Source: Pseudophaeomoniella oleicola
Taxonomy: Eukaryota > Ascomycota > Eurotiomycetes > Phaeomoniellales > Phaeomoniellaceae
Reading direction: 5' to 3'
DNA length: 64,000 nt
NCBI GenBank assembly: GCA_003868215.1
Contig: QWDQ01000044.1
Span: 124,001 to 188,000 of the forward strand
Positions 10,215-49,454 of the stretch are shown here, piece after piece (within the stretch, counting starts at the first letter, position 1; every line of letters starts with the position of its first letter). The notes under the pieces are model-generated. The model ran no database searches. It saw only the letters and a list, made by a program, of their open reading frames with translations, and had not been told where the DNA came from. A program made the position numbers and the translations under genes.

Positions 10215-13200
10215 TTAGTTCTGTAACAATTTCTGTGATCCACTACTACTTCTGGAACCGCCAGATCCGCTCTTGCTGAAACTACAATATCGATCTTTGA
10301 TCGCCGTGACTTCGTAAATACCCGCGTCGCTCGCTCGGATCCTCTTTTCGAATTCCCAGCTTTTCTCACTCCTCGTCTCCAGAACGACGGGTCTGTTGCC
10401 CTTCTTGCCTGCCATGATCCCTCCTTTGTTGGACGAGGACGAGGGTACTTCTGAACGTGTATACGTGAATTCAAAAGGTGGAGTACCTGTGAATTCGAAA
10501 AGAAGTTCTGCCTCTCCTCCTTCGTGGATATCGACAACCGATGTCCTGCCTTTGGAGATCTTGACGGATGGCATGGGATGTATAGATTTTGTGATGTCTT
10601 TCTCGGCACGACATTTGCCGGAAGCATTGTCCGACAAAGCGGTGATGGTGAAATCTCCAGGTTGCTCAGCAATACGGCGGAAGGTTGGGTTGTGGGATGA
10701 GGAAACAGTAGCCTTGCGATCGTGTCCCTGGAAACGATAGAACACTTCGAATGGAGGGAGTCCGGAGAGTGAGAAGGAGATATGCTCACCGACACAGTAG
10801 TCGGTTTGAGACTCGAGCGGTGTAATAGACGGCACATCGGAAACCATGACGCGGACCGAAGACGGGTCATGGTCAATATGACGCTCGCAGCTACGACTGT
10901 CTTGCACTTTGCGTATAAAGAGAGAATGGGTGCCCAAATCGAGGTTATCGCGAGAGAACGACCACGCATAACGATCAGTTGGCACTTTGAGTTTGATAAT
11001 TTCTGGCCGAGAGCTGCCATGGTGAGTTACGCCAATTTCGAGAGTGAAAGGGGCCTGGCCTTCAAGCATGATGGGAATGGTTTCAGAACCAGTGGCTTCA
11101 TTGGTGCAATATCCGTAAGTCTTTCCTGGATATTCGAAACGAGCGGTTGGTAAAGGGTTAACCTTTTGGAAAACAGTAAGGGTTTTGAAACGCCGGGGTT
11201 CATGGTCGTAGAGATTGTCGCTCACAGAGGTGAATTTGTATTCATTCTCGCCGGCTCTGGAAGTGTCCAAGTGGATGGAAGCAGTTCCAATGGCGGCGGA
11301 GATCTTCTTGTTGTGGACGAACCCGGAACCTTTAGTCGGCCGTTGACTATGACTGTAGCTAATCTCATACGGTGGACTGCCGCTCATAGAGAGACGAAGT
11401 TGGTCATCATCGCCTTCGCAGACTTCTGGCTTCCTGTAAACATTCCCAACCTCTTGGCTGATGTTGCCATCTTTGACAGCAATGCTAGGTCGATTGATCC
11501 AAGAGACTTTGAATCTGTTAGCAGCTGTGTCGATGATACCAGGGCAAGTATCATGGACTTCTCTGAGTTCATAAGTGCCTGGTTTCTGCACCGTGATGGC
11601 TGAATTTCTATCTCTGAATTTGTGTGTTGACTCGGAAGTGGCGCCTGCCTCGTCGACGTGGGCTAATTGCACTGTCCAAGGTTGAACACCTTGCAGTCGT
11701 ACAGGAAGACTGACCGACTTCCCTTCCAGCGCAACAGTTGATAGCTGGCCATCGATATCTCCGAATTTGGCTTTGGCTTGTTCTGAGCGTACCTCAAACT
11801 TCAGTTCTTCGTTCAAAGAACGCTTACATTTTGATTTGTCGGTAACGCTTGTCAGGACTATCGAATATTGGCCGCCTCGGTTGAAGTGGTCTGTCGTAAG
11901 AGAGTATTCCTGTGTGTCGACCACTGCCGAACGACGTTCCCTCTTTCCATGATGTACAAGCTCATAGTCCAGGTTCCACGGAGCCTCGCCGATCAAAGAA
12001 ATATCTGCGGTGACAGGCGAGCCCAGACAGACTTTTTCTCGCATATCGCGCTTCGTGAAATGGGCTGAAGCGGCCGGTTTGACATTTTGGGTCAGTATCA
12101 GATTTCTGTCCTTCAAAGAGACAGGTCCATATACATCATCCACAAGCTCTTTGAACTCGTAGACATATGACCCTGCAGACATGGGTATCAGATCCAGATG
12201 ACCTCGAGAGCCGTCGAACTTAGCTGTTTTTGGCCTGAGTTGGCCATCATGTAGGATCGTGTATCGTAATTGGAAAGGTGGAGTTCCTGTCAGGTCGAAG
12301 TCGACACTCAGGCCGACAGGGTTCCCAGCACAAACGTCGGCGACATCTTCAGACTGTATGGCAATGTCAGGGCGTGGAGGATTCACCAGCAAACAGGATG
12401 CCGGTTCCACAACCGTACCCGAACAATGTTTGCTACGAACTGATTGGAGACTGTAAAAACCCGGCTCGCGGATCATGGGCGATGGCTTGGAGCTGGACAC
12501 AATCACTGACTCAAACGTCGTCTCTTGTGCTCCTCCTTCACTCTGTGGGACAAAGCTGTACTCGACTGAAAGTGGAGCATCCTCCTCGGGAATGCTGCGA
12601 AGATGAGCCATGTCAAGGGGTAGTCGGGTCTGGGCACCTTGGGGTGCCTTGAGAGGATTCTGCGGATCGCAACCGACAACCGACATCTTCGGCCTTTGGT
12701 GGACCAATATATCTTGCTGCTGATCTTTGCCCAAGATACGCTTGGACTTTGAACTGTCGTGCTCCGTCTTGTATACGACGATGTTGCCGCTCGCGTCTTG
12801 CACTTCTTCCACAATGTAAGACCAAGTCCCCGTAGTACCCATCAATTCGTTTATTGGCACGGTCACCTCAACCGATTTTGCCCAGTCCATCTGAGGGTTT
12901 CGAAGGTCCACGACTGCACCTGAAGGCTGCTGCATGTTTAATGGACTGAAGAGATCATCTGGTTGGATATTCTGAAAATGCGAACTTGATTCGTGGTTGT
13001 TGATAGCCTTGCTGTATTTTACCTTGAAGGGAGGCAGACCTGACACCTTCAGATGCAGATTAGAGACATCTCCACTACATTTGTCCTTGAAGTCTGTAAC
13101 GATGCTTGCCTGCGGACAACGGGGAACTACTGTGTCGAATGCGCGCTTGTGCACCTCCAGCTTTGACTCGTCCAGTACACGTTGTAACTGATACACTCCG

Positions 13201-14039
13201 GTCTTTTTAATTGGAAGTTGTAACATCCGAGGGCTGGCCTTGTCAGCTTTGGAGTACCCTTTATCTGCCTGTCGTTTTAACTGTTTCGCCTGCTTAGCGC
13301 TGATTGTAATGAGTTCTGTTTCGCCAGTCTCGAGGTCGGTCCGCGAGAGCTCCATCAGTACCGGCGTAGTTTGATTTATTCTTATGGGCAAGTCGACACT
13401 CGTGATTGTTGAGTCTAGACAGAGCGGTATCCGATCAGGGTTCATCACAGCTGAACCTTCGGGCAAGATCTGAATGATCTGTTTCCCTAGAATCAATGAC
13501 GAATTGTGTATAATGTCCGACGGCTTCACTTTCCTCTCCGAGATAGCCAGCTCCCTATCGTATGCAACCTTGACCATCGCCGAGAGCCAAGCAGCAATAG
13601 GAATGGGTATGTGGAACATCAAGAAGGCATCCATGACGGCATGCAGTAAGAACAGCGTCAGTGTGGTCGAAAACCCCCATTCCAGCCATGGTATTCTGAA
13701 TGTTGGCAGCACAAACAGTGCGACAAAATCGATAGATACCCATTTTAAGAACAGCCATGTTGAATCTAGCTCGTCTGCGACTTTCCAATAGTCCATCACT
13801 CTGAACATCGAGAGGATGCCATACGCAGCGACAATCAGTAAGCGTTGTGTGGGAGCATCGATGAGATCGAATGGGATGAGAGGTTGTGAAGAGTCAGAGC
13901 TCGCGGCGGAAATCGGCTGCTTCGCCGGCATAGGCACAGATGGTCGACCATCTTGTCGCTGTTCATACGGGCGTCGTTGAGAGAGGGTTGATTGTGGAGT
14001 TGATGGAAAGGCTGACCGCAGCCGCGGCGTGTGGTACAT
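10215..14039 (-). CDS. POM152: Nucleoporin POM152, nuclear pore membrane ring
   Basis: Single exon, 1274 aa, close to the 1337 aa of yeast Pom152. The N-terminus is a short nucleoplasmic region followed by a membrane cluster (about residues 66-190: LLIVAAYGILSMFRVMDYW, LKWVSIDFVALFVLP, and LTLFLLHAVMDAFLMF). The rest is the lumenal domain, built of repeated Ig-like modules, each with a C-x-G...GxPPFxxxY core (for example VCLGSPV, VCEGDDDQLRLSMSGSPPYEI, YCVGEHISFSLSGLPPFEV). Known role: the transmembrane ring of the nuclear pore complex, oligomerising in the perinuclear space. The C-terminal Ser/Gly-rich tail (SKSGSGGSRSSSGS) looks strain-variable. Not part of an operon-like group; its promoter is shared with the F-box gene. 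Confidence 0.95.
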   Translation of the reverse strand: MYHTPRLRSAFPSTPQSTLSQRRPYEQRQDGRPSVPMPAKQPISAASSDSSQPLIPFDLIDAPTQRLLIVAAYGILSMFRVMDYWKVADELDSTWLFLKWVSIDFVALFVLPTFRIPWLEWGFSTTLTLFLLHAVMDAFLMFHIPIPIAAWLSAMVKVAYDRELAISERKVKPSDIIHNSSLILGKQIIQILPEGSAVMNPDRIPLCLDSTITSVDLPIRINQTTPVLMELSRTDLETGETELITISAKQAKQLKRQADKGYSKADKASPRMLQLPIKKTGVYQLQRVLDESKLEVHKRAFDTVVPRCPQASIVTDFKDKCSGDVSNLHLKVSGLPPFKVKYSKAINNHESSSHFQNIQPDDLFSPLNMQQPSGAVVDLRNPQMDWAKSVEVTVPINELMGTTGTWSYIVEEVQDASGNIVVYKTEHDSSKSKRILGKDQQQDILVHQRPKMSVVGCDPQNPLKAPQGAQTRLPLDMAHLRSIPEEDAPLSVEYSFVPQSEGGAQETTFESVIVSSSKPSPMIREPGFYSLQSVRSKHCSGTVVEPASCLLVNPPRPDIAIQSEDVADVCAGNPVGLSVDFDLTGTPPFQLRYTILHDGQLRPKTAKFDGSRGHLDLIPMSAGSYVYEFKELVDDVYGPVSLKDRNLILTQNVKPAASAHFTKRDMREKVCLGSPVTADISLIGEAPWNLDYELVHHGKRERRSAVVDTQEYSLTTDHFNRGGQYSIVLTSVTDKSKCKRSLNEELKFEVRSEQAKAKFGDIDGQLSTVALEGKSVSLPVRLQGVQPWTVQLAHVDEAGATSESTHKFRDRNSAITVQKPGTYELREVHDTCPGIIDTAANRFKVSWINRPSIAVKDGNISQEVGNVYRKPEVCEGDDDQLRLSMSGSPPYEISYSHSQRPTKGSGFVHNKKISAAIGTASIHLDTSRAGENEYKFTSVSDNLYDHEPRRFKTLTVFQKVNPLPTARFEYPGKTYGYCTNEATGSETIPIMLEGQAPFTLEIGVTHHGSSRPEIIKLKVPTDRYAWSFSRDNLDLGTHSLFIRKVQDSRSCERHIDHDPSSVRVMVSDVPSITPLESQTDYCVGEHISFSLSGLPPFEVFYRFQGHDRKATVSSSHNPTFRRIAEQPGDFTITALSDNASGKCRAEKDITKSIHPMPSVKISKGRTSVVDIHEGGEAELLFEFTGTPPFEFTYTRSEVPSSSSNKGGIMAGKKGNRPVVLETRSEKSWEFEKRIRASDAGIYEVTAIKDRYCSFSKSGSGGSRSSSGSQKLLQN

Positions 14040-44822: not shown

Positions 44823-44830
44823 TATATATA
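44823..44830 (+). promoter_or_regulatory. TATA box of the repeat-peptide precursor
   Basis: TATATATA about 155 bp before the ATG at 44985; the leader between them is CT-rich, as usual for well-expressed fungal genes. Confidence 0.55.
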
Positions 44831-44984
44831 TGGCCACTGTGTGACCTCGAAGACTCTTTTCATTCCTGTTATCTTTCTTTCCTCCATTGTCCTCATTTCA
44901 ATTCACATTCCAACTCCAGTCTTCCTACTCTGAGCATAGCTCCTCATTATACAGATTGCACGTCACGATAATCTCTCTACTACA

Positions 44985-45800
44985 ATGCATTTCAAGACAC
45001 TCAGCGGAGCCTCGGCTCTCATACTCCTGTTTTCTCATTCTATCGGAGCCCCAATCAAGAACTTCGAGCTCCAAGCCATACAACAAGATCTGGAAAGGCG
45101 TGTAGCCCACGTCCCAAAGAACCCCGAGTTGGAGGATCCAGAAGCCTCCTCTCCTGTCCACATCTCCAAACGCTCGAGCAGCGAAGCAGAGAAGCGTGAT
45201 CCGTGGGAACGTCTTGGAAAAGTATCCAGTGACGACAACGAACAGCCCTCTAAACGCACCGAACTCACCGAGCGTGATCCTTGGGAACGCCTCGATATAC
45301 CCCCACAGGATGAAGCAAGCGACCTCACCAAACGAACACCATGGGAGCATCTGAATGACACCGACGCTGACTCAACGTCAGCAGAAGCAAATCCTTCCAA
45401 ACGAAGTCCATGGGAACGCCTCTCCTCCGAAGACCCGTCAAACAGCCCCATCGCCCCCGCATCCCTCCCCAAACGAGCACCATGGGACCACCTCAACGGC
45501 GACGACGGCGACTCCGACTCAACCTCAGCACCAGCAGCAGAGAAACAAAAACGCACTCCAAACCCCTGGGAACGCCTCTCCAATTCCCCATCCAGCACCG
45601 ACACCCTCTCCAAACGCGCACCATGGGAACGCCTCTCCAAAACCCCACCCGCTGCCCCTATATCCAAACGCAACCCCGGGGAACATCTCTCCCAAACCCT
45701 GCCCCCACCCGCTGCCGCCGTTCCGAAATCCAAACGCGCTTCCTTATCCGCTCGCAATCCATGGGAACGTTTGGATTTGGTGGATACGGAGACCGAGTGA
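44985..45800 (+). CDS. Secreted Kex2-processed repeat protein (PWERL peptide precursor)
   Basis: Single exon, 271 aa. Residues 1-21 are a signal peptide (hydrophobic ALILLFSHS, cleavage near IGA). After a 40-residue pro-region there are ten Lys-Arg sites (62, 70, 90, 116, 139, 163, 189, 210, 228, 250, first residue given) and one Arg-Arg (38). Nine copies of a short core follow these sites: DPWERL (72 and 98), TPWEHL, SPWERL, APWDHL, NPWERL (193), APWERL, NPGEHL (230) and NPWERL (258). Each core is followed by a variable acidic or Ser/Pro-rich spacer of 10-20 residues. This is the KEP (Kex2-processed repeat protein) layout of fungal pheromones, repellents and dikaritin-type RiPP precursors. 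No Cys; the only aromatic residue of the core is Trp. No UstYa-like gene is nearby. Function unknown. Confidence 0.88.
   Translation: MHFKTLSGASALILLFSHSIGAPIKNFELQAIQQDLERRVAHVPKNPELEDPEASSPVHISKRSSSEAEKRDPWERLGKVSSDDNEQPSKRTELTERDPWERLDIPPQDEASDLTKRTPWEHLNDTDADSTSAEANPSKRSPWERLSSEDPSNSPIAPASLPKRAPWDHLNGDDGDSDSTSAPAAEKQKRTPNPWERLSNSPSSTDTLSKRAPWERLSKTPPAAPISKRNPGEHLSQTLPPPAAAVPKSKRASLSARNPWERLDLVDTETE

Positions 45801-46171: not shown

Positions 46172-46206
<35 letters not shown>

Positions 46207-46505: not shown

Positions 46506-49454
<2,949 letters not shown>

Follow-up and report, generated by a model that had tools for sequence, protein, structure and literature searches.

The window, by which we mean the whole 64-kb stretch of DNA analysed here, contains an open reading frame in which similar short peptide cores recur behind putative Kex2 sites, and it raises the question of what such a precursor releases: a linear signal, a cyclised or otherwise modified peptide, or linear effectors and the like. 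The ORF is intact, occupies one open frame ending in TGA and encodes 271 aa in a single exon (Table 1). Its hydrophobicity peaks at residues 8-16 (averaged over 9 residues, mean KD 2.34 vs at most 0.88 past residue 30), as expected for a signal peptide, and a putative one was therefore assigned to the N-terminus. Recounting reproduced the ORF, the ten KR sites (residues 62, 70, 90, 116, 139, 163, 189, 210, 228 and 250) and the nine cores described in a previous sequence-only reading, and added one RR site at residue 38 and two LxxR sites. As that reading had stated, Trp is the only aromatic residue of the cores: the aromatic residues of the precursor are eight Trp and three Phe, all three Phe lying N-terminal to the repeats. 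Cys, Tyr and the dipeptide GQ do not occur anywhere in the 271 aa, and the repeat precursor is expected to be disordered.

The nine xP[W/G][ED][RH]L cores start at residues 72, 98, 118, 141, 165, 193, 212, 230 and 258, and the copy at residue 230 is the only one in which Gly replaces Trp. Shuffling the protein body 100,000 times produced P[WG][ED][RH]L at most once per shuffle, and all nine occurrences of this motif in the six frames of the window fall inside the precursor ORF.

Table 1. Features of the repeat precursor gene (positions within the window)
Feature	Position	Strand	Basis or remark
TATA-like run (tatatatat), then pyrimidine-rich stretch 5' of ATG	44824..44832	+	sequence; putative promoter role
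Precursor ORF	44985..45800	+	one exon, 271 codons and stop
Putative signal peptide, residues 1-21	44985..45047	+	hydrophobic peak; cleavage point judged by eye
Core-less pro-region (residues 22-71) carrying RR (38-39), KR (62-63) and KR (70-71)	45048..45197	+	Kex2-type sites
Core 1 DPWERL, preceded by KR	45198..45215	+	motif scan
LTER, LxxR Kex2-type site ahead of core 2	45264..45275	+	LxxR motif (PMC8528282, in part)
Core 2 DPWERL, preceded by LTER	45276..45293	+	motif scan
Core 3 TPWEHL, preceded by KR	45336..45353	+	motif scan
Core 4 SPWERL, preceded by KR	45405..45422	+	motif scan
Core 5 APWDHL, preceded by KR	45477..45494	+	motif scan
Core 6 TP-NPWERL (doubled X-Pro), preceded by KR	45555..45578	+	motif scan
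Core 7 APWERL, preceded by KR	45618..45635	+	motif scan
Core 8 NPGEHL (Trp to Gly), preceded by KR	45672..45689	+	motif scan
LSAR, LxxR Kex2-type site ahead of core 9	45744..45755	+	LxxR motif (PMC8528282, in part)
Core 9 NPWERL, preceded by LSAR; protein ends 8 residues on	45756..45773	+	motif scan

In place of orthologues, the nine core copies were compared with one another (36 pairs). Over the five codons P-W-[ED]-[RH]-L, pS was 0.63 and pN 0.097, giving a ratio of 0.15 (0.12 without the Gly copy), whereas the five codons directly 3' of the core, aligned by position and not by homology, gave pS 0.67, pN 0.70 and a ratio of 1.03. Counted against the commonest core, 12 differences are synonymous and 6 are replacements; a simple simulation of mutation predicted 4.3 synonymous differences (P = 0.0003), a value to be read with the non-independence of the copies, which share ancestry and may exchange sequence by gene conversion. 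As silent change between the copies greatly exceeds amino-acid change, the core looks selected. The silent drift among them suggests that the copies are old and that the amino acids of the core were held while the following codons were not. The earlier description of a conserved core with variable spacers thus stands.

A Kex2-type site lies directly before each of the nine cores, KR in seven cases and LxxR in two (LTER and LSAR), which substantiates the earlier assignment to the KEP type. LxxR is an expanded Kex2 motif with Leu or another aliphatic residue preferred at P4 (PMC8528282, in the part consulted). Immediately ahead of W or G, all nine cores have an X-Pro dipeptide: the residue at X is variable (D, D, T, S, A, N, A, N, N), but Pro never changes and is encoded by four synonymous codons. 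Unit 6 (KR-TP-NP-WERL) has two such dipeptides in register, and XPXP is among the sites reported for alpha-factor precursors (PMC10569646, in part). When all 13 KR, RR and LxxR sites were cut in silico, X-Ala or X-Pro followed ten of them, and the three exceptions start the short core-less segments SSSEAE, TELTE and ASLSA. KR was followed by X-[A/P] in 7 of 10 cases in the precursor vs 5 of 35 in the remaining open stretches of 200 aa or more in the six frames of the window, some of which are not genes. As the repeats are homologous, the nine X-Pro sites do not count as nine independent events.

XA or XP after a Kex2 site constitutes the STE13 signature, which in Ascomycota is generally confined to alpha-pheromones and is reported absent from Rep1, from toxic cyclic-peptide precursors and from epichloecyclins, as far as the consulted sections of PMC6339444 go. 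Because X varies at an invariant Pro and the dipeptide matches this signature, x-P is probably a trimming site and not part of the core, W[ED][RH]L being the N-terminal head of the product. The sequence-only reading had counted x-P within the core, which is at odds with its behaviour in all nine units and with its doubling in unit 6; its proposal that the PWERL end is the functional part holds for the constraint on the core, but x-P fits a trimming site and WERL would form the head of the peptide. An STE13-type trimming site in turn suggests that the product is a linear peptide resembling a pheromone or hormone and not a cyclised RiPP. In silico processing left no fragment of 30 aa or more and predicted nine linear peptides of 12-22 residues, eight headed by W (W[ED][RH]L) and one by G, with variable tails of 8 to 18 residues that are acidic or Pro/Ser-rich. 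The net charge of these core-bearing products ranges from -5 to +1 and is negative in seven of the nine.

To place these features in their genomic context, the genome (26.1 Mb, 112 contigs) was searched for processing, receptor and modifying genes. The proprotein-convertase (Kex2) P domain matched once. DPPIV_N matched one protein, which contains GWSYGG and, at its N-terminus, what looks like a membrane segment; we take it to be a membrane dipeptidyl aminopeptidase (DPAP) of the DapB/Ste13 type. STE2 had one match, on contig C65, and STE3 two matching pieces that share a contig. The STE2 and STE3 matches, like those to UstYa (DUF3328) described below, exceeded the curated cut-offs in searches in which the control genomes were silent. 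No match to the MAT alpha box profile was obtained in the genome; the controls were equally silent, hence this search was uninformative.

We propose, with a probability of about 0.5, that the gene encodes a secreted linear signal made on the pheromone processing line, with a Kex2 cut and an STE13/DapB trim yielding up to nine peptides. The repeat precursor would be secreted through its putative N-terminal signal peptide and cleaved by Kex2 at the KR and LxxR sites. Kex1 would likely trim the fragments, and a dipeptidyl aminopeptidase of the STE13/DapB type would remove X-Pro, so that at most nine short linear peptides would be set free, of which eight would have W[ED][RH]L at the N-terminus. 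Recognition would depend on the WERL head, the acidic or Pro/Ser-rich tails being tolerated as spacers, and the peptides would likely act as an extracellular signal perceived by a receptor, Ste2 or another GPCR, on the producing cell or its partner. The genome's matches to the Kex2 P domain, DPAP, STE2 and STE3 support this reading; it is weakened by a conserved stretch of only four residues, by tails of 8 to 18 residues and by the one copy that lacks Trp.

The same linear peptides may instead be effectors, antimicrobials or surface-coat peptides comparable to Rep1 and Ece1, directed at other organisms or at the surface of the hyphae, which we consider unlikely, although it is the alternative that survives best. 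Linear KEP products of this sort are known (PMC7329392 and PMC8528282, each in part), the variable tails are ill-suited to strict receptor recognition, and PMC6339444, where it proposes STE13-signature KEPs as good hormone candidates, also allows them an effector role in the part consulted. However, the mostly acidic predicted products are unlike lytic peptides, and Rep1 is one of the proteins reported to lack the signature.

A modified or cyclised, dikaritin-like RiPP, in which Kex2 would free the hexapeptides and a distant UstYa protein or a neighbouring dioxygenase would modify Trp, is rather improbable. Like the precursors of the dikaritins ustiloxin, phomopsin and asperipin, the protein combines a predicted signal peptide and Kex2-bounded repeats with a short conserved core and variable linkers, and a hexapeptide core between such linkers is reminiscent of RiPP precursors in general. 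The genome also holds at least 22 UstYa matches (exon pieces) on nine contigs. None of them lies on C52, the contig of the window (226,975 bp), and the precursor is at least 57 kb from both contig ends; the earlier statement that the window has no UstYa gene thus extends to the entire contig (0 of 22 matches). Furthermore, the precursor differs from dikaritin precursors in carrying the STE13 signature and in lacking Tyr, the residue of the core used for cross-linking, although cross-linking through Trp is possible.

UstYa accompaniment, defined as a UstYa gene within 15 genes, applies to 22% of KEPs and not to the other 78%, and nearly all annotated pheromones are without a UstYa neighbour (PMC7329392, from the part consulted). 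The precursor is not UstYa-accompanied by this definition, a feature shared with alpha-factor precursors and not with those of dikaritins; since only 22% of KEPs have such neighbours, the missing UstYa is in itself weak evidence. In favour of the RiPP, W occurs together with P in the repeat of Umemura's KEP type P-3 (Fonsecaea, Cladophialophora and mushrooms), as in the precursor, and four of the seven P-3 members have UstYa neighbours (PMC7329392, in part, P-3 being compared by its description only); our precursor has none, and its searches returned no P-3 protein.

The UstYa matches are distributed over contigs C72, C1, C22, C51, C85, C71, C107, C47 and C25, several being clustered on C1 and C22, and these groups are likely the dikaritin-type clusters of the fungus. 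In the flanks (about 1.5 kb per side) of 8 of the 22 matches, no ORF with at least five KR was present; three ORFs with three to four KR occur near UstYa (two at L010, one at L017), and inspection by eye revealed no repeated core in them.

The immediate neighbourhood of the precursor was likewise screened for modifying genes, as the sequence-only reading had suggested. Among 20 chosen neighbouring ORFs there was no match to the UstYa, tyrosinase or methyltransferase families, which counts against the RiPP, but a PhyH-type dioxygenase is located about 4.5 kb upstream. The window further includes a sugar transporter of the MFS type and, at 27-30 kb, a short-chain dehydrogenase and a Zn2Cys6 regulator. 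Genes of all four types can belong to metabolic clusters, and it is therefore possible that a neighbour modifies the peptide.

Least probable is a linear signal that retains X-Pro, with Pro2 of a mature xPWERL... peptide shielding its N-terminus from aminopeptidases: Pro is present in 9/9 cores vs Trp in 8/9, but X is free to vary, the doubling in unit 6 keeps WERL in the X-Pro register, and the genome encodes a DPAP of the right type.

The preferred reading, a linear signal released by the processing route of pheromones, leads to the question of whether the peptide is an alpha-pheromone. Repeats of alpha-pheromones are nearly identical over 9-14 residues and usually contain a GQ/beta-turn dipeptide or a Cys pair, and many alpha-factors start with Trp after trimming, as eight of the nine predicted products of the precursor do. 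With the alpha-factor precursors MF-alpha of yeast, Ccg-4 of Neurospora and PpgA of Aspergillus the protein shares the signal peptide (predicted here), a pro-region, many Kex2-bounded repeats, an STE13-type X-Pro before each repeat that is sometimes doubled, and the absence of a UstYa neighbour. XA or XP between Kex2 site and repeat was found in 9/9 units. In contrast to these precursors, conservation is limited to the four-residue head W[ED][RH]L, the tails vary in length and composition, neither a GQ/beta-turn dipeptide nor a Cys pair (a feature that is itself not universal) is present, and there is no detectable similarity to the sequences searched. Judged by anatomy the precursor operates like that of an alpha-pheromone, but because two of the usual features are missing, we did not file the gene as an alpha-pheromone precursor. 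The core is unlike every alpha-pheromone named in the consulted parts of the literature, which include a Cys-free example, PYGxPxG of Pleosporales (PMC6339444, in part).

Four Cys-type patterns were searched for in the genome to find a canonical precursor. WC...GQ.C had 4 matches (0 in the reversed control), each single in its frame. WC...G..C had 90 (control 63), and the lone same-strand pair within 1 kb, on C59, is in different frames; of the 74 contexts read among these 90, 56 were without an in-frame stop, each again with a single copy in frame. C...GQ.C had 145 matches (control 75), with no in-frame cluster among the matches listed, and C..PGQ.C had 6 (control 2), all apart from one another, of which 3 were read in context. 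This four-pattern search, whose contexts were partly covered, turned up no canonical alpha-pheromone precursor of the Cys type with repeats.

Some single copies have a suggestive setting. At L020, WC...GQ.C lies in a 56-residue frame with KR a few residues downstream. L036 (near C18:180901) has WCSLLGRSC once in a 97-residue frame, between an upstream KR and an RR that follows it immediately, and is a possible alpha-pheromone-like motif. At L094 (C53:183520-183840), KR directly precedes a single CTHPGQAC in a 65-residue frame with no visible signal peptide; the other two C..PGQ.C contexts read have no flanking KR. All four patterns are commoner in the genome than their reversed controls; given this excess and the KR- or RR-flanked singles L020, L036 and L094, the genome may encode an alpha-pheromone elsewhere, in single copy, split or of a different build.

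That the gene is itself an alpha-pheromone precursor which replaced the canonical Cys-bridged one, with Ste2 reading the W[ED][RH]L head alone while the tails drift, is a doubtful extension of the preferred reading, slightly less likely than an effector role and somewhat likelier than a RiPP. The architecture, the STE13 signature, the Ste2 match and the failure to find a repeated canonical precursor favour it; conservation of four residues only, the lack of GQ and Cys, the variable tails and the Trp-less copy speak against it.

Relatives of the precursor were sought by several routes. A phmmer search against 5.8 billion proteins scored 7554 candidates with none at E <= 0.001, and a profile of permuted repeat units gave none at E <= 10 among the 7994 scored candidates sharing most words. 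Neither search returned the window's own precursor, so that both ran without a positive control for the findability of short-repeat proteins; the collection does include relatives of the fungus, as the neighbouring POM152 matched 601 proteins. The cross-species check of the core called for by the sequence-only reading thus brought up no homologue in searches that did not list the query protein either. Pfam matched no domain in the precursor. Three NF-kB entries were the only PDB matches and were rejected as chance (E 0.28-0.6). The genome search gave a single match, with no further copies of the gene, and the DNA pattern for P-W-E-(R/S)-L had 16 genome matches, 5 of them in the precursor gene, the same total as its reversed control. 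In the literature, PWERL retrieved nothing on fungal peptides, its sole match being an unrelated psychology text; six other core strings gave no fungal-peptide title among the matches listed, in which PWEHL and PWDHL scored 0. Queries on alpha-pheromones of Eurotiomycetes or Chaetothyriales and on SNF1 synteny gave nothing usable beyond PMC10569646. Lack of homologues is common in the KEP class, in which 2560 of 7878 proteins stand alone (Umemura, PMC7329392, in part). With a single gene, no orthologue in which to test conservation and stand-alone KEPs so common, the earlier proposal of an undescribed peptide family cannot be upheld.

The precursor is a KEP by anatomy. It shares the general features of the class, with nine repeats between Kex2 sites where at least three are needed; the limits set by Umemura are a repeat of at least 8 aa and no fragment above 100 aa, and its conserved repeat comprises only about 8 aa including KR. 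It combines a pheromone architecture with a non-canonical peptide and is a novel variant, not a novel kind. KEPs with the STE13 signature and of unknown role have been described from Basidiomycota and Rhizophagus (PMC6339444, in part), and they share with the precursor a peptide unlike known pheromones; the precursor differs in coming from a Eurotiomycete-like ascomycete, where the signature generally denotes alpha-pheromones according to the same portion of that source. xPW[ED][RH]L is not among the conserved motifs in the accessible text of PMC6339444, the comparison being with the text alone. By the reasoning in this part of PMC6339444, a clean ascomycete KEP with the STE13 signature is a candidate for an undiscovered fungal peptide hormone. 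The core is short enough for synthesis, and the genome has Ste2, Kex2-type protease and DPAP matches. As a divergent mating pheromone the peptide would widen what Ste2-type receptors can read; as a separate hormone it would be one built on the pheromone processing line.

The lineage of the source was assessed with the POM152 nucleoporin (window 10215-14036, minus strand), for which 601 proteins matched with a best identity of 76%. Among the best 120 of these 601, identity was 66-76% to environmental proteins and about 50% to named fungi, dominated by genera such as Endocarpon, Penicillium and Fonsecaea, which like Cladophialophora are Eurotiomycetes. Because identity reaches only 66-76% at best and about 50% to mostly Eurotiomycete genera, the source is probably an isolated, apparently sparsely sampled Eurotiomycete lineage.

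The window contains no second KEP-like ORF, its two other ORFs with at least five KR belonging to the SRAP and POM152 genes. On one side the precursor is flanked by the MFS sugar transporter, a low-molecular-weight phosphatase, PhyH, TMEM234 and DJ-1/PfpI, and on the other by an SNF1-type kinase with adenylate sensor, DUF3455, PRELI and a class I tRNA synthetase, its own locus lying between DJ-1/PfpI and SNF1. The kinase gene (46506-49454, minus strand) is spread over three ORFs, probably interrupted by introns: one encodes the N-terminal part of the kinase, another its C-terminal part together with UBA, and the third the adenylate sensor. The 3' end of the kinase gene faces that of the precursor gene. 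A TG microsatellite at 46174-46202 is located in the intergenic region downstream of the precursor.
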